Assembly: GCA_018241985.1 (NCBI GenBank)
Contig: JAFECV010000015.1
Location: 1 to 12,475, forward strand
Direction of reading: 5' to 3'
Length of the DNA: 12,475 bases
Source: Pseudomonadota bacterium
GTDB taxonomy: Bacteria > Pseudomonadota > Gammaproteobacteria > Burkholderiales > Burkholderiaceae_C
Shown: piece after piece, positions 2,115-11,749 of the stretch
How positions within the stretch are numbered: position 1 is the first letter of the stretch
Layout: each line of letters opens with the position of its first letter
The notes under the pieces: model-generated
The model's database searches: none
Told to the model about the DNA's origin: nothing
What the model saw: the letters and a program-made list of their open reading frames with translations, nothing else
Made by a program: the position numbers and the translations under genes

Positions 2115-2143
2115 TTGACGGATATACAACGTTGTGATGTAAC
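2115..2143 (+). promoter_or_regulatory. Promoter of the ABC transport operon
   Basis: TTGACG (2115-2120) and TGTAAC (2138-2143) are separated by 17 bp, a plausible sigma-70 promoter with a good -35 and a moderate -10. It lies 65 bp before the start codon of the binding protein. The spacer is occupied by the MarR-type operator motif, so repressor binding would block polymerase directly. Confidence 0.6.
2123..2142. promoter_or_regulatory. MarR-type operator candidate in the transport-operon promoter
   Basis: The minus strand reads TTACATCACAACGTTGTATA, with a perfect 10-bp core palindrome ACAACGTTGT at 2126-2135. It matches the motif at the marR promoter (9467-9486) at 17 of 20 positions, and all three differences are transitions. 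It fills the spacer and -10 of the promoter here. I infer that the MarR protein encoded at 9507 binds both sites. Confidence 0.6.
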
Positions 2144-2207
2144 TGGGGGTCACAGGATCCCGGCGCCGTGCCCTTCGGGTCCGCTGTTTCATCACGAGGA
2201 ATCCATC

Positions 2208-3470
2208 ATGCTGCGATCGAATTCGTCTGAACCGAGCCGCGCGCTATGCCGGCTCGCCGCCGCGGCGGCGCTGGCGCTGTGCGCCGCCGCGCCGCTGCCG
2301 GCCGCCTCCGCCGAGCCGCCGATCAAGATCGGCGTGATCGCCGAGGCGCAGGCCGTTGCCGGCGCGTCGATTCCGCAGGCCGCGCAGATGGCGGCCGACG
2401 AGATCAACGCGAAGGGCGGGGTCGACGGGCGCAAGATCGAGATCGTCACCTACGACGACCACAGCTCGTCGGCCGACGCGGTGCGGGCGTTCCAGCGCGC
2501 GGCGAACGACGACAAGGTCACCGCGGTGATCGGCAGCTACATCAGCGAGGTGGTGCTGGCGCTCGAACCCTGGGCGGCGCGGCTGAAGATGCCGTTCATC
2601 ACGCCGGGCGCGGCGTCGAACGAGATCAGCCTGAACGTGCACCGCGATTACGCGAAGAACAAGTACACCTTCCACGGCTACATGACCTCGGCCGCGCTGG
2701 CGCAACAGGTGTGCGACGCGGCGAAGGATCTGCTGGTCGACGGGCTGCACATGAAGACCGCGGTGATCATGAGCGAGGACGCGGCCTGGACCAAGCCGCT
2801 CGACGCCGGCTACGAGGCCTGCCTGCCCAAGGCGGGCCTGAAGGTGCTCGATCACATCCGCTTCTCGCCCGACACGACCGACTTCACGCCGATCTTTAGC
2901 AAGATCGAGGCGACCAAGGCCGACGTGATCATCACCGGCATCGCGCACGTGGGCGTTCAGCCCACCGTGCAATGGAAGACGCAGCAGGTGCCGATCCCGA
3001 TGTTCGGCGTCAGCGCGCAGGCCAGCAGCGGCACGTTCTGGAAGGACACGAACGGCGCCGCCGCCGGCGTGCTGACGCAGTCGGTCTCCGCGCCGGACGC
3101 CGCGGTGACGCCGAAGACGATTCCGTTCGCCGACGACTTCAAGAAGCGCTTCGGCAATTTCCCGTCTTACGCGGGCTACACGGCCTATGACGAGGTCTAC
3201 TACATCGCCGACGCGATCCGCCGCGCGAAGTCGACCGACGCCGACAAGCTGGTCGCCGCGCTCGAGAAGACCGACTGGGTCGGCACGATCGGCCGCATCG
3301 AGTTCTACGGCAAGAGCGACGAGTTCACCCATTCGATCAAGTACGGCAAGGGGCTGGTGAACGGCCTGATGCAGCAGTGGCAGGACGGCAAGCTGATCAC
3401 GGTCTGGCCGAAGGACGTCGCGAAGGCGCCGCTCAAGTTCCCGTCGTTCGTCAACACCGCGCAGAAGTAG
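2208..3470 (+). CDS. livK: Branched-chain amino acid-type ABC transporter, periplasmic binding protein
   Basis: This 420-residue protein is the soluble receptor of a HAAT-family importer. It has a Sec signal peptide (basic start, hydrophobic run 16-29, cleavage likely after AASA at residue 35). A type I periplasmic-binding fold follows: IKIGVIAEAQAVAGASIPQAAQMAADEINAKGG, YDDHSSSADAVRAFQRA, VTAVIGSYISEVVLALEPWA, and a C-terminal lobe with YDEVYYIADAIRRA. The start ATG 2208 is supported by GAGGA at 2196-2200 and by the signal peptide; upstream in-frame codons only lengthen it into the intergenic element. It is the first gene of the operon. Family members also bind urea, short amides, aromatic acids and other carboxylates, so the ligand is open. 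Its promoter holds a MarR-type site. Confidence 0.88.
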   Translation: MLRSNSSEPSRALCRLAAAAALALCAAAPLPAASAEPPIKIGVIAEAQAVAGASIPQAAQMAADEINAKGGVDGRKIEIVTYDDHSSSADAVRAFQRAANDDKVTAVIGSYISEVVLALEPWAARLKMPFITPGAASNEISLNVHRDYAKNKYTFHGYMTSAALAQQVCDAAKDLLVDGLHMKTAVIMSEDAAWTKPLDAGYEACLPKAGLKVLDHIRFSPDTTDFTPIFSKIEATKADVIITGIAHVGVQPTVQWKTQQVPIPMFGVSAQASSGTFWKDTNGAAAGVLTQSVSAPDAAVTPKTIPFADDFKKRFGNFPSYAGYTAYDEVYYIADAIRRAKSTDADKLVAALEKTDWVGTIGRIEFYGKSDEFTHSIKYGKGLVNGLMQQWQDGKLITVWPKDVAKAPLKFPSFVNTAQK

Positions 3471-3487
3471 CGCGCGGCCGGGCTGAC

Positions 3488-3511
3488 CGCGGCGGCCACG
3501 CGACCGCCGCG
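3488..3511 (+). other. Intercistronic hairpin between binding protein and permease genes
   Basis: CGCGGCGG (3488-3495) pairs perfectly with CCGCCGCG (3504-3511) across an 8-nt loop, 17 bp after the livK stop. No T tract follows. Such hairpins commonly protect the upstream message from 3' decay or weaken readthrough, giving more binding protein than permease; that role is inferred here. Confidence 0.45.
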
Positions 3512-3555
3512 CGCCTGGCCTGGATGCGCCCCCGCCCCGACGACCCGCACGCCCG

Positions 3556-4431
3556 ATGCTGGCCCTGCAGATCCTGATCGACGGTTTCGCGATCAGCGCG
3601 CTCTATGCGCTCGGGGCCATGGGGTTCACGCTGATCTTCGGTGTCTCGGGCGTGCTCAACCTGTCGCACGGCGCGATCATGGTCGCGGCCGCGGTGGCGG
3701 CCTGGGCCTGCGGCAGCCTGCTGCACCTGAACGGCTACGCAGGCTCGCTGGTGGGCCTCGCGACCGCGCTGGTCGTCGCGCTGGCCACCTATTTCCTGGT
3801 GGTGCAGCCGATCCAGCGCTCGCGCCGCATCGCGAACGAAGAGAAGGAAATCTTCATCCTCACCGCGACGCTGCTGTGGGGCATCATGCTGGAGGAGCTG
3901 ATCGCCTACTTCTTCACCAACAACGCGAAGACGGTGCTGCCGCTGGTCGAGGGCGTGGTCGGCATCCTGGGCGTGCGCACGCCGCGCAACGAGGTCTTCA
4001 CTGCCCTCGTCTGCTGGATCGCGATCGGCGGGCTGTGGGCGTTCGTGAACCGCACGCGCATGGGCAAGGTGGTGCTCGCCGCATCGATGAATCCGCGCGG
4101 CGTGACGCTGCTGGGCCACGAACTGACCCGCGTCTACGTCGTGGTCTGGGCGATCTACGGCATCCTCGCCGGCATCGCCGGCGTGCTGCTCGGCATGTTC
4201 CTCGGCGTCAGCTCGTACAGCGTCGGGCCGCTCACGGCCAGCGCGTTCTCGATCGTCGTGCTCGGCGGCCTGGGCAGCGTGTCGGGCTCGCTGCTCGCCG
4301 CGTTCGTGGTCGGCTACCTGGAAACGCTGACCGCGTACCTGGTGTCGCCGGCGTACCGCTCGATCCCCGCCTTGCTGCTGCTGGTCGCGGTGATCTATGT
4401 GCGCCCGCAAGGCCTGCTTGGAAGGCGATAG
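3556..4431 (+). CDS. livH: Branched-chain amino acid-type ABC transporter permease (LivH family)
   Basis: A 291-residue inner-membrane permease with about eight hydrophobic segments. Family marks are the N-terminal IDGFAISALYALGAMGFTLIFGVSGVLNLSHGA (about 8-40), the cytoplasmic coupling loop TRMGKVVLAASMNPRGVTLLG (167-187) that contacts the ATPase, and VVLGGLGSVSGSLLAAFVVG (234-253). Length is typical. The start ATG 3556 gives the usual N-terminus, although no good ribosome-binding site precedes it; the gene lies 85 bp after livK with a hairpin between. It pairs with the next gene to form the heterodimeric membrane pore. The family assignment is secure and the substrate is unknown. Confidence 0.88.
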   Translation: MLALQILIDGFAISALYALGAMGFTLIFGVSGVLNLSHGAIMVAAAVAAWACGSLLHLNGYAGSLVGLATALVVALATYFLVVQPIQRSRRIANEEKEIFILTATLLWGIMLEELIAYFFTNNAKTVLPLVEGVVGILGVRTPRNEVFTALVCWIAIGGLWAFVNRTRMGKVVLAASMNPRGVTLLGHELTRVYVVVWAIYGILAGIAGVLLGMFLGVSSYSVGPLTASAFSIVVLGGLGSVSGSLLAAFVVGYLETLTAYLVSPAYRSIPALLLLVAVIYVRPQGLLGRR

Positions 4432-4435
4432 TCCA

Positions 4436-5359
4436 GTGAGGCTGCTACGTTCGCCCTGGCTCTGGATCGTGCTCGCGGCGCTGGTCGTGGCGACCTCGCT
4501 GCCGTGGTACGTCTCGGGCTACGTGTTGGGGCTGCTCACGGTCGCCTACTACTTCGGCGTGTTCTCGATGAGCTGGGACCTGCTGTTCGGCTTTGCCGGC
4601 GAGGTCAACTTCGGCCCGACCTTTTTGATCGGCGTCGGCGCGTACACCGCCGGCATCCTCGACAACCGCTACGGCTGGTCGCCCTACCTGTGCATCGCGC
4701 TCGGCGCGCTGGCGGCGGTGGTCGCGGGCTTTCTGCTCGCGCTGCCGGCGCTGCGCGTGCGCGGGCCGTATTTCGGGCTGATCACGCTGGTCGCGGTGCT
4801 GATCCTGCAGAGCTTCGTCGTCGTGTTCGCGGACCTGACCGGCGGCGAGATCGGGCTGACGATCCCCGACGTGCTGTCCATCGATGCCGGCGTCAACTAC
4901 TGGATCGCGCTCGGGTTCATGACGATCAGCGGCGCGATCCTGTTCGGCCTCGCGCGCTCGCCGGTCGGGCTGATCCTGCAGGCCAGCGGCCAGGACCCGG
5001 TGCAGGCCGGCGCCTTGGGTTTCAACATCGTCAAGCACAAGCTGGCCGCGTTCGTCGCGAGCTCGCTGTTCTCGGGACTCGCGGGCGCGCTGCTGGTGTT
5101 CTACATGGGCACCGCGTCGGTCGGGACCGTGGTCGACCTCTCGGTCGGCGTGCAGGTGATCGTGGCCGCGGTGCTCGGCGGCCGGCGCACCGTCATCGGC
5201 GGCGTGATCGGCGCGATCTTCCTGATCGTCGCCGGCGAATTCCTGCGCCCGACCGGCGAACTGGCCACCTTCATCGTCTCGACGGTCGCGCTGCTGGTGA
5301 TCCTGTTCTTCCCGAACGGCTTTCTCGGTTCGCTGCTGGCGCGGGGGGCGAAGCAATGA
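4436..5359 (+). CDS. livM: Branched-chain amino acid-type ABC transporter permease (LivM family)
   Basis: This is the second pore subunit, 307 residues from GTG 4436. It shows GFAGEVNFGPTFLIGVGAYTAG (52-73), the LivM signature RVRGPYFGLITL (107-118), the coupling loop ASGQDPVQAGALGFNIVKHKLAAF (183-206), and VLGGRRTVIGGVIGA (246-260), with about nine to ten membrane spans. GTG 4436 is preferred: GGAAGG lies 10 bp upstream, it follows the livH stop (4429-4431) by four bases, and it gives a normal N-terminus. The in-frame ATG 4397 would add 13 polar residues overlapping livH. The stop overlaps the next start as ATGA at 5356-5359, so translation is coupled to the ATPase gene. Confidence 0.87.
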   Translation: MRLLRSPWLWIVLAALVVATSLPWYVSGYVLGLLTVAYYFGVFSMSWDLLFGFAGEVNFGPTFLIGVGAYTAGILDNRYGWSPYLCIALGALAAVVAGFLLALPALRVRGPYFGLITLVAVLILQSFVVVFADLTGGEIGLTIPDVLSIDAGVNYWIALGFMTISGAILFGLARSPVGLILQASGQDPVQAGALGFNIVKHKLAAFVASSLFSGLAGALLVFYMGTASVGTVVDLSVGVQVIVAAVLGGRRTVIGGVIGAIFLIVAGEFLRPTGELATFIVSTVALLVILFFPNGFLGSLLARGAKQ

Positions 5360-6831
5360 CCGCGGCCACGCAGGCATTGCTGCAGGTGCGCGGGCTCACC
5401 AAGCGCTTCGGCGGCCTGACGGCGGTGAAGGACCTCGACCTGGATCTGCACGGCGGCGAGATTTTTGGGCTGATCGGCCCGAACGGCTCCGGCAAGTCGA
5501 CCGCGATGAAATGCATCATGGGCATCGAGCGCCCGAGCGCCGGCCGCGTGCTGTTCGACGGCGACGATCTAGCCGGGCTGCCGGCGCACCGGATCGCGCG
5601 CCGCGGCTTCGGCATGGTGTTCCAGCATTCGCGCCCGCTGAACCGGCAGACCGTGCTCGAGAACATCATGGTCGCGCTGCTGCCCGACAGCCTGCGCAAG
5701 GTGTTCTCCGACCATGCGCTCGCGCAGCACGCGCGGCAGATCGCCGAACGCGTCGGCTTAGGGGGCGTGCTCGAACGCAAGCCGCCGACGCTGCCGTTCG
5801 CCGACCTGCGCCGGCTCGAGCTCGCGAAGGCGATCGCGCGCAATCCGCGCGTGGTGCTGGTCGACGAGCCGTTCGCCGGCCTGACGCTGGCCGAGGTCGC
5901 GACCTTCTCCGCGCTGATCCGCGGCTTTCGCGACGAAGGCCGCGCGGTGCTGCTGGTCGACCACAACGTCAAGAGCGTGTCGGCGCTGGTGGACCGGGTG
6001 CTCGCGATGTACCTGGGCGAGGAGATCTGCACCGGCCGGGCCGACGAGGTGATGAAGAACGAGACCGTGCGCCAGGTCTACCTCGGCGGCTCGATCGAGA
6101 CCGCCGCGCGGCCGGCGGCCGACTTCGCCGGCAAGACGCCGCGGCTGGCGGTGAAGAACCTCAGCGTGCACTACGGCAAGGCGCAGGCGCTGCAGGACGT
6201 GTCGATCCACGTGCACGCCGGCGAGTTCGTCTCGATCGTCGGCCTGAACGGCGCCGGCAAGACCACGCTGTTCAACACCATCTCGGGCCTGCTGCCGTAC
6301 GCCGGCACCATCGAGCGCGACGGACAGGCGCTGCGCGGCCGGACCGCGGCGCAGATCGCGCGCGGCGGCATCGTGCAATGCCCGGAGACCCGCGAGCTGT
6401 TCGGCGAGATGACGGTGCGCGAAAACCTGGATCTCGGCGGCCAGCACCAGCAGAGCGCCGAGCGCGAACGCCAGCTCGGCTGGCTGCTCGACCTGTTCCC
6501 GATCCTGCGCGAGCGCGCCGGCCAGCTCGCGCAGACGCTCTCCGGCGGCGAGCAGCAGATGCTGGCGATCGCGCGCGCGCTGATGATGAAGCCCGACCTG
6601 CTGATCCTCGACGAGCCGACGCTGGGCCTGGCGCCGGTGATCCTCGAGCAGTTGTCGAAGGCACTGGAAACGCTGCGCCAGACCACGCCGCTGACCGTGC
6701 TGCTGGGCGAGCAGAACGTCACCTTCGCGCTGCCGCACGCGGACCGGGTCTACGTGCTGGAACATGCGCGCATCGCCTGGGAAGGCGACCCGGCGCGCTT
6801 CGCGCAGGAAGCCGGGGCCGACTACCTGTAG
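5356..6831 (+). CDS. Fused LivG-LivF double ATPase of the ABC importer
   Basis: One uninterrupted frame of 491 residues encodes two nucleotide-binding domains that are usually separate proteins. Domain 1 (about 8-245, LivG-like) has Walker A GPNGSGKST (41-49), Q-loop Gln90, Walker B VVLVDE (166-171) and switch His203. Its signature motif is LPFAD (146-150) rather than the usual LSxGx. Domain 2 (about 263-491, LivF-like) has Walker A GLNGAGKTT (296-304), Gln341, a canonical LSGGEQ (395-400), Walker B LLILDE (415-420), and GEQN at 451-454 where LivF proteins normally carry Gln instead of His. The linker is about 247-262. ATGA overlap with livM fixes the start. The protein would power the LivHM pore from the cytoplasm as a single chain. 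The weak signature in half 1 suggests one ATP site may be impaired. Confidence 0.9.
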   Translation: MTAATQALLQVRGLTKRFGGLTAVKDLDLDLHGGEIFGLIGPNGSGKSTAMKCIMGIERPSAGRVLFDGDDLAGLPAHRIARRGFGMVFQHSRPLNRQTVLENIMVALLPDSLRKVFSDHALAQHARQIAERVGLGGVLERKPPTLPFADLRRLELAKAIARNPRVVLVDEPFAGLTLAEVATFSALIRGFRDEGRAVLLVDHNVKSVSALVDRVLAMYLGEEICTGRADEVMKNETVRQVYLGGSIETAARPAADFAGKTPRLAVKNLSVHYGKAQALQDVSIHVHAGEFVSIVGLNGAGKTTLFNTISGLLPYAGTIERDGQALRGRTAAQIARGGIVQCPETRELFGEMTVRENLDLGGQHQQSAERERQLGWLLDLFPILRERAGQLAQTLSGGEQQMLAIARALMMKPDLLILDEPTLGLAPVILEQLSKALETLRQTTPLTVLLGEQNVTFALPHADRVYVLEHARIAWEGDPARFAQEAGADYL

Positions 6832-6931
6832 CGCGGCGCCGGGCGGCGCACCGGAAACAGATCGATGCATCGGCGGGCAGACCGGTCCGGTAGAGTACGG
6901 CCTGTCCACACCAAAAACGGGAGCGCGAAGA
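6832..6931. other. 100-bp gap before the halogenase-like gene
   Basis: No gene is seen. It holds a GC-rich potential hairpin just after the ATPase stop (GCGCC/GGCGC, no T tract), a perfect 10-bp palindrome CGATGCATCG at 6863-6872, and GACCGGTC at 6880-6887. I find no convincing -35/-10 pair and no copy of the MarR-type motif, so readthrough from the transport operon is the simplest source of transcription for the next gene. Confidence 0.4.
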
Positions 6932-8281
6932 ATGAATGACGGCACCGTGCCGTTCGACTGCGACGTGTTCGTGATCGGCGGCGGCCCGGCCGGCGCGACC
7001 GTCGCCGCGCTGCTCGCGCGCGCCGGCCGCTCGGTGCTGCTGGCCGAGAAGGCACGCCACCCGCGCTTCCACGTCGGAGAGTCGCTGCTGCCGGCCAATG
7101 CCCCGCTGTTCGACCAGCTCGGCGTACGGGACGCCGTCGAGCGCATCGGCATGCGCAAGCTGGGCGTGCAGTTCGTCTCGCCCGACCACGCGCACACCAC
7201 GCGGCTCGCGTTCGCCGAAGGCTGGGACCCGCTGCTCGACCGGGCCTGGCAGGTGCGGCGCGCCGAACTGGACCGCATTCTGTTCGACCGCGCGCAGCAG
7301 GACGGCGCGCGGACCCTGGAAGGCTGCCGCGTGCGCAGCGTCGCGTTCGACGCGGCCGGGGTCGACATCGAGGCGGACGCCGAAGCCGGATTCGATGCCG
7401 AGAATGCCGAGCGCCGCCGCTGGCGTGCCCGCTACCTGATCGACGCCTCGGGACGCGACACCCTGCTCGCGAACCAGTTCGCGATCAAGCAGAAGAACCC
7501 GCGCCACAACAGCTCGGCGCTGTTCGGCCATTTCGAGCAGGCCGAGCGCGGCAGCGGCGACCGCGAAGGCGACATCACGATCTTCTGGTTCGCGCACGGC
7601 TGGTTCTGGTACATCCCGCTGGCCGACGGTAGCGTCAGCGTGGGCGCGGTGTGCTGGCCGTACTACCTGAAGTCGCGCACGAAGCCGCTGCCCGAATTCT
7701 TCGCCGACACGATCGCACTGAGCCCGCCGCTCGCGCAGCGTCTGGCAAAGGCGCGGCTGATCGACGGCAAGGTGTACGCGACCGGCAACTATGCGTACAG
7801 CGCGAGCCGCTGCACCGGCGAGCGCTACGTGATGCTCGGCGACGCGTTCACCTTCGTCGACCCGGTCTTCTCTTCCGGCGTCTACATGGCGATGCACGGC
7901 GCGTTCGAGGCGGCGGCGCTGATCGCGACCCATCTGGACGAGCCGGCCAAGGCGCCGGCAGCGCGCCGGCGTTTCGAGCAGTACATGCGCCGCGCGCCGC
8001 GCGAGTTCTCCTGGTTCATCTTCCGCATGACGAACCCGGCGATGCGCGGGTTCTTCATGAATCCGCACAACCCGCTCGGCGTGAAGAGCGCGGTCCTTTC
8101 GCTGCTCGCCGGCGACATCCACCGCGGCACGCCGATCTGGGCCTCGCTGGGCGTGTTCAAGGCGCTGTACTACATCGCGTCCGCGCTGCAGCCGCGCCGC
8201 GCCTGGCAGGCCTGGTGGCGCAGGCGCCGCAACATCCAGGGCGCGGGGTCGGTGCCGGGCGAGAACGTGCAGCCGGGTTGA
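6932..8281 (+). CDS. Flavin-dependent halogenase-like oxidoreductase
   Basis: This 449-residue FAD protein belongs to the tryptophan-halogenase-like group of the PHBH-fold flavoenzymes. Visible marks are the dinucleotide motif GGGPAGA (16-22), HVGESLLP (47-54), and RKLGVQF with Lys76 where halogenases carry their catalytic lysine. The halogenase-diagnostic WxWxIP is present as WFWYIP (224-229). A second FAD motif GDAFTFVDPVFSSGVYMA (303-320) is of the type seen in phenol/pyrrole (variant B) halogenases. Such enzymes use reduced FAD, oxygen and chloride or bromide to make hypohalous acid, which reacts through the lysine. The start ATG 6932 has GGGAG 8 bp upstream. No biosynthetic cluster or carrier protein is visible nearby, so the substrate is unknown and a non-halogenating oxidoreductase role remains possible. 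The C-terminal 65 residues are basic and aromatic. Confidence 0.75.
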   Translation: MNDGTVPFDCDVFVIGGGPAGATVAALLARAGRSVLLAEKARHPRFHVGESLLPANAPLFDQLGVRDAVERIGMRKLGVQFVSPDHAHTTRLAFAEGWDPLLDRAWQVRRAELDRILFDRAQQDGARTLEGCRVRSVAFDAAGVDIEADAEAGFDAENAERRRWRARYLIDASGRDTLLANQFAIKQKNPRHNSSALFGHFEQAERGSGDREGDITIFWFAHGWFWYIPLADGSVSVGAVCWPYYLKSRTKPLPEFFADTIALSPPLAQRLAKARLIDGKVYATGNYAYSASRCTGERYVMLGDAFTFVDPVFSSGVYMAMHGAFEAAALIATHLDEPAKAPAARRRFEQYMRRAPREFSWFIFRMTNPAMRGFFMNPHNPLGVKSAVLSLLAGDIHRGTPIWASLGVFKALYYIASALQPRRAWQAWWRRRRNIQGAGSVPGENVQPG

Positions 8282-8302
8282 ACGGATCGGATCGCGGTTG
8301 CT

Positions 8303-9403
8303 TCAGCGCACGCGCGCCGAGCGCAGCCATTGCACGATGCGGCGCAGCAGGCCGGCGAACGCGGCGACCCAGGCGAGCAGCGCGAGCACCAGGAACGCCA
8401 CCGGCAGCGGCCACAGGAAGTCGAGCGCCAGCACGTGCGCCATGTCGTAGCTGCACACCGAGTACATGCCGAGCGGAAACACCGCGCCCCAGTCGAGCGG
8501 GTCGTAGCGGAACGGGAACCGCTTGTACACGTAGCTCCAGACGTCCAGCACGATCATCATCGGCACCCACCAGGTGCCGGTCGCCCAGTAGAACACCATG
8601 AAGCCCATCAGGAACGGCGTCAGCACGCGCAGCATCGGCGCGTCGCCGGCGTTCTCGATCAAGAGCGCGCCGACCAGCGTCGAGATCGCCATCGCGCCCA
8701 TGCTGATCCAGTGCGGCGGCGTCAGGTCCGCCGGCGCGAAGTGGAAGAACGTGTCGCGGTAGAAGATCAGCGACACCATCCAGATGTACTGCATGCCGCC
8801 CCACAGCCACATCGCCAGCGCAAAGAAGTTCAGCGCCAGCCGCCAGGGCTGCGGCGCCTGCGCGGCGAGCAGCGCCCCGACCACCGCGAGCGACTGCGTC
8901 GCCACCACCGCGAGCAGCCAGGCGCCGCTGATGCCCTTGTCCAGCGTCGGCTTCACGTCCTTCACGATCATCGCGGCGAACACGGTGTAGGTCAGCACCA
9001 GCCACAGCACGTAGGCGAGCGCGAGCAGCACGGCGCCGAACCAGAAGCGGTGCGCGAGGATCACGCACTGCGCGCCCAGCACCGCGGTCGCTGCGACCGA
9101 GGTGAAGTAACCCGGGCCGGTCATGTGGTCGACCATGTCGCCGTAGAAGCGCCGCGGGAACACCAGCATGCGCAGCGTGTTCATGCACCACAGCAGCGCC
9201 CAGGCGACGCCGGCGATCCAGAACAGGCCGAGCGCGATCCGCTCCAGGCCATGCTGGTGCGCCGCGAGCGACACGATGCCGGTCGCCATCACCATCGCGA
9301 AATAGGCCGGCGACAGATCGACCAGCCCCGCGAGCACGCCGCCGGCCCCCGCGCGCCGCGCGCGCCGTTCGCTCGCCTCGCCGACGTTCATCGCGAACAC
9401 CAT
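8303..9403 (-). CDS. TehA/SLAC1-family (TDT) anion channel or transporter
   Basis: A 366-residue polytopic membrane protein on the minus strand with about ten hydrophobic segments. It shows the family's first helix SPAYFAMVMATGIVSLAA (31-48), GPGYFTSVAATAVLGAQ (97-112), PPHWISMGAMAISTLVGALL (229-248) and WGAVFPLGMYSVCSYDMA (305-322). The tellurite-resistance/dicarboxylate transporter family includes TehA, the malate permease Mae1 and the plant SLAC1 anion channel, so monovalent anions or small dicarboxylates are the plausible cargo. ATG 9403 gives the longest product; ATG 9391 is an alternative and neither has a clear ribosome-binding site. It converges on the halogenase-like gene with only 21 bp between and diverges from marR across 103 bp that contain the MarR-type site. 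Confidence 0.82.
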   Translation of the reverse strand: MVFAMNVGEASERRARRAGAGGVLAGLVDLSPAYFAMVMATGIVSLAAHQHGLERIALGLFWIAGVAWALLWCMNTLRMLVFPRRFYGDMVDHMTGPGYFTSVAATAVLGAQCVILAHRFWFGAVLLALAYVLWLVLTYTVFAAMIVKDVKPTLDKGISGAWLLAVVATQSLAVVGALLAAQAPQPWRLALNFFALAMWLWGGMQYIWMVSLIFYRDTFFHFAPADLTPPHWISMGAMAISTLVGALLIENAGDAPMLRVLTPFLMGFMVFYWATGTWWVPMMIVLDVWSYVYKRFPFRYDPLDWGAVFPLGMYSVCSYDMAHVLALDFLWPLPVAFLVLALLAWVAAFAGLLRRIVQWLRSARVR

Positions 9404-9424
9404 CGATCGCAGCCCATGGATTTC

Positions 9425-9430
9425 ACTATA
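9425..9430 (-). promoter_or_regulatory. Possible -10 box for the TehA/SLAC1-like gene
   Basis: TATAGT on the minus strand matches the -10 consensus at five of six bases and would start transcription about 15 bp before the ATG at 9403, giving a very short leader. No good -35 lies 16-18 bp upstream. The assignment is tentative. Confidence 0.3.
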
Positions 9431-9466
9431 GACGCCGCGCGCGAACGGTGCCTCGCTTTCGCCGAT

Positions 9467-9486
9467 TTATATCACGATGTTGTATA
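9467..9486. promoter_or_regulatory. MarR-type operator candidate at the marR promoter
   Basis: TTATATCACGATGTTGTATA is an imperfect inverted repeat (ATCAC ... GTTGTATA) that covers the first four bases of the marR -10 box at 9483-9488. Its inverted copy sits in the transport-operon promoter. Placement over its own -10 fits autorepression by the MarR protein; being between divergent genes it could also affect the TehA/SLAC1-like gene. Confidence 0.6.
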
Positions 9487-9488
9487 AT
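9483..9488 (+). promoter_or_regulatory. Perfect -10 box (TATAAT) of the marR-CLC operon
   Basis: TATAAT at 9483-9488 matches consensus exactly in a GC-rich genome. No strong -35 is found 16-18 bp upstream (TTTCGC at 9457-9462 is 20 bp away). Transcription would begin near 9495, within or just before the ribosome-binding site for GTG 9507. This rules out the in-frame ATG at 9477, which lies upstream of the transcript. Confidence 0.6.
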
Positions 9489-9506: not shown

Positions 9507-9938
9507 GTGATCAACAAGCGGCAGTACGCTACCCTGTCGGAATTCCGGTTTCGGCTGGCCCAGTTTTTGCGATTCAGCGAGGCGGCGGCGCTCGACGCCG
9601 GGATGTCGCCGCTGCAGTACCTGCTGCTGCTGCACCTGCGCGGATATCCGGGGCGCGAATGGGCGACCGTCGGCGAACTAGCGGCGCGGCTGGACGCGAG
9701 CCATCAGGGCACGGTCGGGCTCGTCAAGCGCTGCGAGGCGAACGGCCTGGTCACGAAGCAGCGCAGCACGATGGATGCGCGGCGCGTCGAAATCCACCTG
9801 ACGCCGCGCGGCCGCGCGCTGGTCAAGCGCATCGCGACGCGCCACCTGCGCGAGCTCAATCGCCTCGACGAAATCTTCCGCTCGGTCGGCGCCGCCCACC
9901 GCGAGCGGCTGAACCTGGCCCAGGAGGCAAGCTTATGA
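9507..9938 (+). CDS. MarR-family transcriptional regulator
   Basis: A 143-residue winged helix-turn-helix repressor. It has an N-terminal dimerisation helix (about 9-30), the DNA-reading part WATVGELAARLDASHQGTVGLVKRCEANGLV (52-82), the beta-wing RSTMDARRVEIHLTPRG (86-102, with the family's DxRR), and a long C-terminal dimer helix. MarR proteins usually repress until a small, often aromatic or phenolic ligand releases them from DNA. GTG 9507 is chosen because GAGGAG (9494-9499) lies 7 bp upstream; the in-frame ATG 9477 sits within the operator and -10 box. The stop overlaps the start of the CLC gene (ATGA). Operator-like sites occur at its own promoter and at the transport-operon promoter. 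Its ligand cannot be read from sequence. Confidence 0.88.
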   Translation: MINKRQYATLSEFRFRLAQFLRFSEAAALDAGMSPLQYLLLLHLRGYPGREWATVGELAARLDASHQGTVGLVKRCEANGLVTKQRSTMDARRVEIHLTPRGRALVKRIATRHLRELNRLDEIFRSVGAAHRERLNLAQEASL

Positions 9939-11749
9939 GTTCCAAACCATCGGATCCGGCCGCGACCCCGGAGTGGCGCGACTTCTCCGGAAACGACCGG
10001 TTCCTGATGCTGTCGGCGTTCGCGATCGTGATCGGCATCCTGAGCTCGGTCGGCGCCTACGTGCTGTTCCAGGCGATCCGCTTCTTCACCAACCTGTTCT
10101 TCTATCAGACCTTCTCGTTCGAGTTGCACTCGCCGGCCGACAATCACCTCGGTGCCTGGGTCATCATCGTGCCGGCGATCGGCGGGCTGATCGCGGGGCT
10201 GGCCGCGCGCTTCGGCACCGAGAAGATCCGCGGCCACGGCATTCCCGAGGCGCTCGAGGCGATCCTGTACGGCAAGAGCCGCATGTCGCCCAAGGTCGCG
10301 GTGCTGAAACCCATCGTTTCGGGCATCGTGATCGGCAGCGGCGGCCCGTTCGGCGCCGAAGGGCCGATCATCGTGACCGGCGGCGCGGCTGCTTCGCTGC
10401 TGGCGCAGGCGTTCAGCCTGACCTCGGCCGAGCGCAAGGCATTGCTAGTGGCCGGCGCCTGCGCCGGCATGACCGCGGTGTTCGGCACGCCGGTGGCCGC
10501 GGTGCTGTTCGCGGTCGAGCTGATGCTGTTCGAACTGCGGCCGCGCAGCCTGCTGCCGGTCGCGATCGCCTGCGCGGTGGCCGGGTTCCTGCGGCCGGTG
10601 TGGTACGAAGGCGGGCCGCTGTTTCCGATGACGACCTCGGAGCCGGCGCCGATCGCGATCGTCTCGTCGATCATCGCGGGCCTGGCCTGCGGTGCGCTCT
10701 CGGCCGCGGTGACCCACATGTTCCATTACATCGAGGAACTGTTCGACCGACTGCCGCTGCACTGGATGTGGTTTCCCGCGATCGGCGGCCTGGTCGTCGG
10801 CGTTGGCGGCTACATCCAGCCGCGCGCTTTAGGCGTCGGCTACGACGTGATCGGCGACCTGCTCGCGAACGACCTGTTGCTGGCCACCGCCGCGACCCTG
10901 GTGATCGTCAGGGCCATCATCTGGGCGGTGGCGCTGGGGTCGAACACCTCGGGCGGCACGCTCGCGCCGCTGATGACGATAGGCGCCGGCCTGGGTGTCG
11001 TGATGGGCCGCTGGCTGCCCGGCGGCGACGTGCAGCTCTGGGCGCTGGTGTGTCTGGCCGCGATCATGGCCGGCACGCTGGGGGCGCCGCTGATGGCGAT
11101 CGTGTTCGCGTTCGGGCTGACGCACGACGCGAATGCGTTCCTGCCTGTGCTGCTCGGCTGCATCGTGTCGTATGCGTTCACGGTGATCGTGATGCCGCAC
11201 TCGATCCTGACCGAGAAGATCGCGCGGCGTGGCCGGCGCATCTACCGCGAGTACAGCGTCGACCCGCTCGAGCAGAGCTTCGTCGACGACGTGATGACGC
11301 GCAACGTGAAGGCGATCCCGGCGCAGCTGCCGATCGCCGACGTGCTCGACCAGTTCTTCGGCGGCACGCAGACGCAGCGCGCCTATCCGGTGCAGCAGGC
11401 CGACGGCAGGCTGCTCGCGATGGTGGACCGCAGCACCTTCCTCGACCTCGAACCGCAGACCCTCGCGCAGCCGGTCGCCACGCTGCTCGCAAACCAGAGC
11501 CCGGCGTTCGCGCTGCCGACCGAGACCTGCCGCACGGTCGGGTCGCGCATGGCGGCGGCGGGGCTGGAGCGCTTTCCGGTCATCGAGTCCGCCGAGACGT
11601 TCCAGCTGATCGGCATCGTCAGCCGCAGCGACCTGGTCAAACCCCGAAAGATGATCCACGAGGAAGAGTCGCAGCGCGAGCGCTTCTTTCACCATCCCTG
11701 GGAGAAGCAGGAAGCGCTGCCCGACGCGGAAGACGGCGACGCGCGCTGA
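9935..11749 (+). CDS. CLC-family chloride channel with C-terminal CBS domains
   Basis: A 604-residue membrane protein with a CLC pore (about 25-430) and a cytoplasmic CBS pair (about 450-570). Pore motifs are GHGIPEALEAI (100-110), GSGGPFGAEGP (134-144, with gating Glu142), GTPVAAVLFAVEL (184-196) and GSNTSGGTLAPLM (335-347). By my alignment from memory to E. coli ClcA, the inner proton glutamate (Glu203) is Leu196, the central tyrosine (Tyr445) is probably Leu425 within SILTEKIARRG, and the pore serine is His101. Loss of the proton glutamate points to a passive anion channel rather than a chloride/proton exchanger. CBS domains commonly bind adenine nucleotides and tune gating. The start ATG 9935 has a perfect AGGAGG 7 bp upstream and overlaps the marR stop by 4 bp, so the two genes form one operon. 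Confidence 0.9.
   Translation: MSSKPSDPAATPEWRDFSGNDRFLMLSAFAIVIGILSSVGAYVLFQAIRFFTNLFFYQTFSFELHSPADNHLGAWVIIVPAIGGLIAGLAARFGTEKIRGHGIPEALEAILYGKSRMSPKVAVLKPIVSGIVIGSGGPFGAEGPIIVTGGAAASLLAQAFSLTSAERKALLVAGACAGMTAVFGTPVAAVLFAVELMLFELRPRSLLPVAIACAVAGFLRPVWYEGGPLFPMTTSEPAPIAIVSSIIAGLACGALSAAVTHMFHYIEELFDRLPLHWMWFPAIGGLVVGVGGYIQPRALGVGYDVIGDLLANDLLLATAATLVIVRAIIWAVALGSNTSGGTLAPLMTIGAGLGVVMGRWLPGGDVQLWALVCLAAIMAGTLGAPLMAIVFAFGLTHDANAFLPVLLGCIVSYAFTVIVMPHSILTEKIARRGRRIYREYSVDPLEQSFVDDVMTRNVKAIPAQLPIADVLDQFFGGTQTQRAYPVQQADGRLLAMVDRSTFLDLEPQTLAQPVATLLANQSPAFALPTETCRTVGSRMAAAGLERFPVIESAETFQLIGIVSRSDLVKPRKMIHEEESQRERFFHHPWEKQEALPDAEDGDAR

Follow-up and report, generated by a model that had tools for sequence, protein, structure and literature searches.

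A shared 21-base-pair inverted repeat probably links a MarR-family regulator to a liv-type importer operon as well as to its own CLC channel operon

The stretch of DNA analysed here (hereafter the window) comprises 12,475 nucleotides of contig JAFECV010000015.1 from assembly GCA_018241985.1, a Pseudomonadota bacterium of the Burkholderiaceae_C, and contains both a liv-type importer operon, headed by a livK-like gene, and an operon in which a MarR-family regulator gene (marR) precedes a CLC channel gene. A preliminary description of the sequence had pointed to a 20-base motif common to the promoters of these two operons. We consider it highly probable, from comparative sequence evidence, that both motifs are operators of this MarR protein (143 amino acids, GTG start, plus strand, 9507..9938; PF12802, 52.3 bits against a cut-off of 27), and that it is an autoregulated repressor, ancestrally of anion channels and now also of the liv-type importer. 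The coordinates given for the motif proved exact (TTACATCACAACGTTGTATA on the minus strand at 2123-2142, and TTATATCACGATGTTGTATA on the plus strand at 9467-9486), as did the identity of 17 of 20 bases, the three differences being transitions at positions 4, 10 and 12. The unit can be refined to a 21-base-pair inverted repeat, at 2122-2142 and 9467-9487, and the three differing bases then coincide with positions (position 4 and the 3-base centre) that are variable in operators from outside the genus.

The site at marR (TTATATCACGATGTTGTATAA, plus strand, 9467..9487) lies over a proposed -10 element, TATAAT (plus strand, 9483..9488), for which no good -35 element was seen. The site at livK (TTACATCACAACGTTGTATAT as read on the minus strand, 2122..2142) lies between the -35 and -10 elements of a proposed core promoter on the plus strand (2115..2143), consisting of TTGACG (2115-2120), a 17-base spacer and TGTAAC (2138-2143), and overlaps the -10 element. 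The placing of both motifs on core promoters is thus retained as a reading of the sequence, but a stricter sigma-70 scan lists no promoter anywhere in the window; both core promoters must for that reason be taken as our own reading, which conservation of their elements in the related genome G176 backs. A SLAC1/TDT-type anion channel gene (minus strand, 8303..9403; PF03595, 161.6 bits) is divergent from marR in the window and in genomes G176 and G301, shares the intergenic region with it, and has an own-strand -10-like TATAGT 36 bases beyond the operator; whether this gene is controlled by the marR operator is uncertain.

The two sites are rare. With up to three mismatches allowed, a pattern merged from both occurs exactly twice in the window (mean 0.01 in shuffled sequence, with none of 200 shuffles containing two) and exactly twice in the whole 3,128,957-base draft genome, both matches being those in the window, whilst a reversed control pattern has no match; the motif is not scattered, and the earlier judgement that chance hardly accounts for it is upheld. 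A duplicated promoter block could be ruled out, as similarity scarcely extends past the motif. A large regulon in the source genome is not supported either: the palindrome common to the family (described below) adds, at three mismatches, two sites (contigs C20 and C183), equal to the reversed-control count. The proposed regulon, as found in this draft, therefore comprises two promoters, or three if the SLAC1-type gene responds. None of the window's top matrix scores falls in the promoter of the lldD-like gene near its left end, and control of that gene was discarded. Upstream of the same gene, at 600-660, is a separate perfect palindrome, ATGCTATTAATAGCAT, with flanks AATACCA and TGGTATT, which from its sequence looks like the operator of another regulator.

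Comparison with related regulators places the window motif within a wider operator class. Two collections were used, namely a family set, made up of 299 genomes belonging to the family of the source genome, of which 42 have a MarR match at 1e-10 and 34 at 1.8e-21 or better (hereafter close MarR), and a named-genome set, in which an alignment of 30 MarR proteins gave 565 confirmed loci, of which the best 80 were taken, with up to 6 kilobases on each side, from genomes including Burkholderia, Caballeronia, Massilia, Janthinobacterium, Duganella, Chromobacterium, Silvimonas, Curvibacter and Variovorax. A common inverted repeat, TTAYATCAC-nnn-GTGATRTAA or a variant of it, recurs before 39 MarR homologues of the family set, where at least 14 of the 18 scored positions agree in 32 of the 39 upstream regions and at least 15 in 20, a convincing site being wanting in two (L079, 12 of 18, and L087, 10 of 18). 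Amongst the best 80 loci, 62 score at least 15 of 18 before marR, as against 2 of 1600 mononucleotide-shuffled upstream regions. The predicted operator of the clade can be written as the 21-base-pair TTAYATCAY-nnn-RTGATRTAA, of which the window motif is a variant, and the repeat, which at marR in the window overlaps the proposed TATAAT, is conserved across the clade. All nine loci that lack a site at marR and have a same-strand HPP gene just upstream carry instead a site scoring 15 or 16 before HPP (eight are named Caballeronia and one Burkholderia turbans); in these HPP-led loci the predicted operator follows the promoter that leads the unit. An independent matrix built from 49 distinct operator sites from outside the genus ranks the window sites first (marR, 24.4 bits) and second (livK, 22.5 bits), the next score being 8.95, and no such score occurs in 5 megabases of Markov-1 random sequence.

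Some loci show further arrangements of these repeats. Tandem operator-like sites 22-23 base pairs apart stand before marR at L060, L068, L069, L080, L083, L084, L153 and L204, mostly with the right half changed, and five of these loci (L060, L068, L069, L080 and L084) adjoin TctAB genes. At L185 (Paraburkholderia phosphatilytica), two strong sites and one weaker site surround marR and CLC, none of them directly before marR.

Site and regulator also tend to occur in the same genomes. In the family set the family palindrome, with at most two mismatches, was found in 23 of the 34 close-MarR genomes and in 41 of the 265 others, a number that includes the eight genomes whose MarR match is weaker (odds ratio 11, Fisher p 5e-10); for the reversed control pattern the figures are 4 of 34 and 23 of 265, which makes lone two-mismatch sites far from marR untrustworthy. 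Fifteen of the 23 positive genomes have one site and eight have two, and in 20 there is a match at the marR promoter. The three exceptions are G168, with its match 1.9 kilobases downstream of marR, and G122 and G215, in which the single site of the whole genome stands 70 and 28 bases, respectively, before a CLC gene on a contig different from that of marR. The genes behind the second sites of G125 and G223 gave a P450 match and no family match, and are consequently not claimed as targets; second sites are present in G194, G199 and G250 also. Genome G162, with no MarR match at 1e-10, carries the same operator-like 20-mer on two contigs (L094:9952 and L095:9961), perhaps as a repeated segment.

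Orthologous promoters in the genus provide a closer comparison. Both sites recur in G176, the sole relative found with the same gene order, where identity is 21 of 21 bases for the liv site and 20 of 21 for the marR site, whilst the remainder of the two intergenic regions keeps 147 of 254 and 57 of 82 bases, respectively. This marR is found in one more genus member, G301, which has the marR site too, in the order lldD-like genes, SLAC1-type gene, site (14 of 18), marR (83% identical), CLC and DNA polymerase IV gene; no liv genes stand there, the liv operon of G301 sitting on another contig. A liv-type binding protein is encoded in all seven genus genomes (those of the six relatives being 83-93% identical), with liv between the lldD-like and SLAC1-type genes in the window genome and G176 only. 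As far as the genus promoters are readable, the site before liv is likewise confined to these two: a site is missing from the 230 bases preceding liv in G299, G254 and G070 and from the 154 bases available in G301, whilst the G300 contig stops at the gene, leaving that promoter unreadable. The liv importer thus looks, from these sequences, like a lineage-specific late recruit. The proposal that one MarR protein serves the importer, itself and the CLC channel is favoured by rarity, by conservation in G176 and by the match to the clade operator, but its importer arm was seen in two species only and is absent where liv lies elsewhere. Random scatter of the motif through the genome and its absence from orthologous promoters, both named in the preliminary description as grounds for refuting the proposal, did not occur. 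Two lldD-like genes lie near the locus in G176 (L056:16520-17656 and L141:542-1678); the lldD-like gene of the window is 96% identical to the farther copy (L141) and 79% identical to the liv-adjacent one, so that the window may have lost, or the assembly collapsed, an intervening stretch.

The liv site is tied to this particular MarR protein by a shared peculiarity. The right half of the window sites reads ATACAAC (outside in), where the clade has ATATCAC. For this comparison 112 proteins were drawn from the window, the best 80 loci of the named-genome set and 31 loci of the family set (L135 together with 30 of the 39 upstream regions), and 107 of these proteins have a site with a score of at least 13. 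The ACAA-type right half occurs in three of the 107 sites, those of the window, G176 and G301, and the same three alone amongst the 112 proteins have glutamine at residue 67 (104 have histidine and five asparagine) and lysine at residue 74. Both residues lie within the predicted recognition helix, residues 66-78 of a single-chain model (predicted local distance difference test score 90.3) whose fold matches MarR structures. Since the liv sites of the window and G176 carry this altered half, seen only with the changed helix, they are tied to this MarR rather than to paralogues of the genus that are 34-41% identical to it. That a different regulator, such as one of these paralogues, binds the liv site, leaving only the marR site to the MarR of the window, is accordingly an alternative that we regard as improbable, even though paralogues are present in genus genomes and in G070, G254, G176 and G192 one adjoins another liv-type operon; the repeats before them, where seen, read differently (e.g. 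ATATATCTTGGTACGATACAT). As an observation in its own right, paralogues 37-42% identical to the MarR of the window (L073:1829-3716, L090, L091 and L093) adjoin other liv-type operons and have upstream repeats of this kind, so that MarR and liv are linked a second time, through a related repeat.

Two further explanations concern what the sites do. The likeness of the promoters might reflect chance or a common promoter shape with no regulatory connection, given that each is an AT-rich core promoter within a window of 68.7% G+C, and weak three-mismatch matches to the merged pattern occur in 21 of the 299 family genomes, the source genome and its sister included; in view of the shuffles, the two genome-wide matches, the matrix scores unequalled in 5 megabases of random sequence and the conservation in G176, we judge this very unlikely indeed. 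It is also conceivable that MarR binds both sites and activates, or acts in opposite senses at the two promoters, since the sites are opposite in orientation relative to transcription and differently placed over the promoters; both nevertheless overlap core promoter elements, where proteins of this family usually repress, and such a mode of action seems to us distinctly improbable.

Under the preferred reading, that of a repressor common to both operons, a MarR dimer would bind each 21-base-pair inverted repeat, covering the -10 element at marR and filling the gap between the -35 and -10 elements at livK. Because the operators lie over core promoter elements, bound MarR would most likely block RNA polymerase, in keeping with the steric repression that is the usual MarR mode, and the marR-CLC operon and the liv-type importer operon would both be repressed until a small molecule or anion freed them jointly. 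Dimers that let go of DNA upon ligand binding or oxidation are characteristic of the MarR family. In the order of events envisaged, anion channels would have come under control first, the liv operon being drawn in on moving next to marR.

Several observations weigh against this reading. The liv link is found in two species and amounts to one evolutionary event, as does the joint change of half-site and helix, and the source draft (820 contigs) is 89.86% complete, so that additional sites may be missing. The window sites score well below the mean of the training sites (37.1 bits), although above the lowest of these (17.8 bits), and are less symmetrical than the outside operators, with 7 of 9 (marR) and 5 of 9 (liv) matched pairs. 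Eleven of the 34 close-MarR genomes have no site at two mismatches or fewer, whilst 41 of the 265 other genomes have a match without a close MarR. At marR itself the match is wanting in three of the 23 genomes with a site; in two of these, G122 and G215, the best sequence upstream of marR scores lower (13 and 12 of 18), and the CLC site there could therefore belong to another regulator. Four of the best 80 loci reach only 14 of 18, and five (L145, L151, L156, L185 and L212) are without a clear site near marR, L151 and L185 having strong sites elsewhere in the locus.

The neighbours of marR suggest what the clade controls. By marR in the best 80 loci we count CLC at 55, HPP at 48, CLC and/or HPP at 64 and SLAC1/TDT at none; no more than three genes from marR, the family set has CLC at six loci, HPP at six and both at two, other neighbours including TctAB, nitronate monooxygenase, metallophosphatase and PAS protein genes. 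The HPP genes beside the clade MarR match Pfam TM_HPP. The HPP family has been linked to nitrite transport (Maeda et al. 2014, as cited in PMC7438415 and PMC4137279); by way of difference, the HPP proteins of the MarR clade that were checked carry CBS domains, and the window has no HPP gene. The CLC proteins compared, that of the window and 16 relatives, all keep GHGIP and GAEGP, and all 17 have leucine or valine, instead of glutamate, at the position that the alignment to solved CLC transporters assigns to the internal proton glutamate. This absence suggests, from sequence, channel-like transport. With anion-channel neighbours and these CLC residues, an anion or acid signal is a plausible inducer.

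We lean, with moderate confidence, towards a broader view in which the MarR proteins of this clade form a conserved group, so far unnamed, that regulates anion channels (CLC, HPP and perhaps SLAC1) in Burkholderiales and relatives and that in one lineage captured an unrelated ABC (ATP-binding cassette) importer, the liv promoter gaining an operator in the local dialect whose half-site had co-changed with the helix, and in which an anion or acid signal switches both. If true, regulon capture and operator-regulator co-evolution could here be read from sequence, genomes of one genus having the ABC operon both with the operator and without it, as a before-and-after view. A widespread MarR clade would gain an operator and a likely target class, the anion channels, which makes its inducer findable. 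What CLC and HPP channels do in bacteria is, to our knowledge, poorly understood, and it would become testable via the regulator should the shared signal be an anion or organic acid.

On the plus strand, the importer is complete as a liv/HAAT-type ABC system within 2208-6831, with the livK-like binding protein (2208..3470; PF13458, 177.8 bits), two permeases (3556..4431 and 4436..5359; both PF02653) and a fused LivG-LivF ATPase of 491 amino acids with two ABC_tran stretches, i.e. two ATPase domains (5356..6831). The binding protein falls below the substrate equivalog cut-offs (UrtA, 59.2 against 492.75; PRK15404, 60.3 against 477), as do the permeases for those of urea and branched-chain amino acids; the fused ATPase exceeds the cut-offs for both UrtE (299 against 285.8) and LptB (303 against 240), for which reason passing UrtE is not evidence of substrate. 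Matches to the fusion of similar span are found in G176, G299, G300, G254, G301 and G070. The CLC channel (plus strand, 9935..11749; PF00654, 247.4 bits against a cut-off of 24.8), in the marR operon, has a CBS domain and falls below the cut-off of the ClcB-like equivalog NF002505 (203.8 against 482). Pfam matches further identify an lldD-like dehydrogenase dependent on flavin mononucleotide (787-1932), a DNA polymerase IV-like gene (from 11787) and, after the liv operon, a halogenase/monooxygenase-like gene dependent on flavin adenine dinucleotide (6932-8281), which has a 65% identical relative (L058:4035-5333) about 4.4 kilobases from marR in G168.

With respect to known systems, the MarR protein of the window could be assigned to no established subfamily, as no NCBIfam equivalog reaches its cut-off; the best match is HpaR (TIGR02337, 31.8 bits, far under the cut-off of 121.2), followed by OhrR (NF052638, 27.8 bits, far under 200), and the older MarR model PF01047 is just missed (23.5 against 24.6). 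In a literature search of titles and abstracts that covered few subscription papers, no description was found of a MarR with this operator or these channel targets. Reconstruction of Proteobacteria regulons by comparative genomics, with lineage-specific regulon expansion (PMC5343134), follows the same kind of inference as is used here; in the passages of that paper on which we draw, HmgS (tyrosine degradation) is the MarR-family group named, and neither CLC nor HPP is mentioned. The solved structures closest to the protein in sequence are remote (2rdp, best 32.7 bits); its Foldseek matches include the MarR-operator complexes 8ylg (Burkholderia MftR) and 8yli (PecS). Amongst MarR-family autorepressors with palindromic operators are OhrR, HucR, MftR and CouR. 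It is such autorepressors that the system described here resembles, in combining a winged-helix protein of about 140 amino acids with an inverted repeat that lies across the core promoter of its gene.

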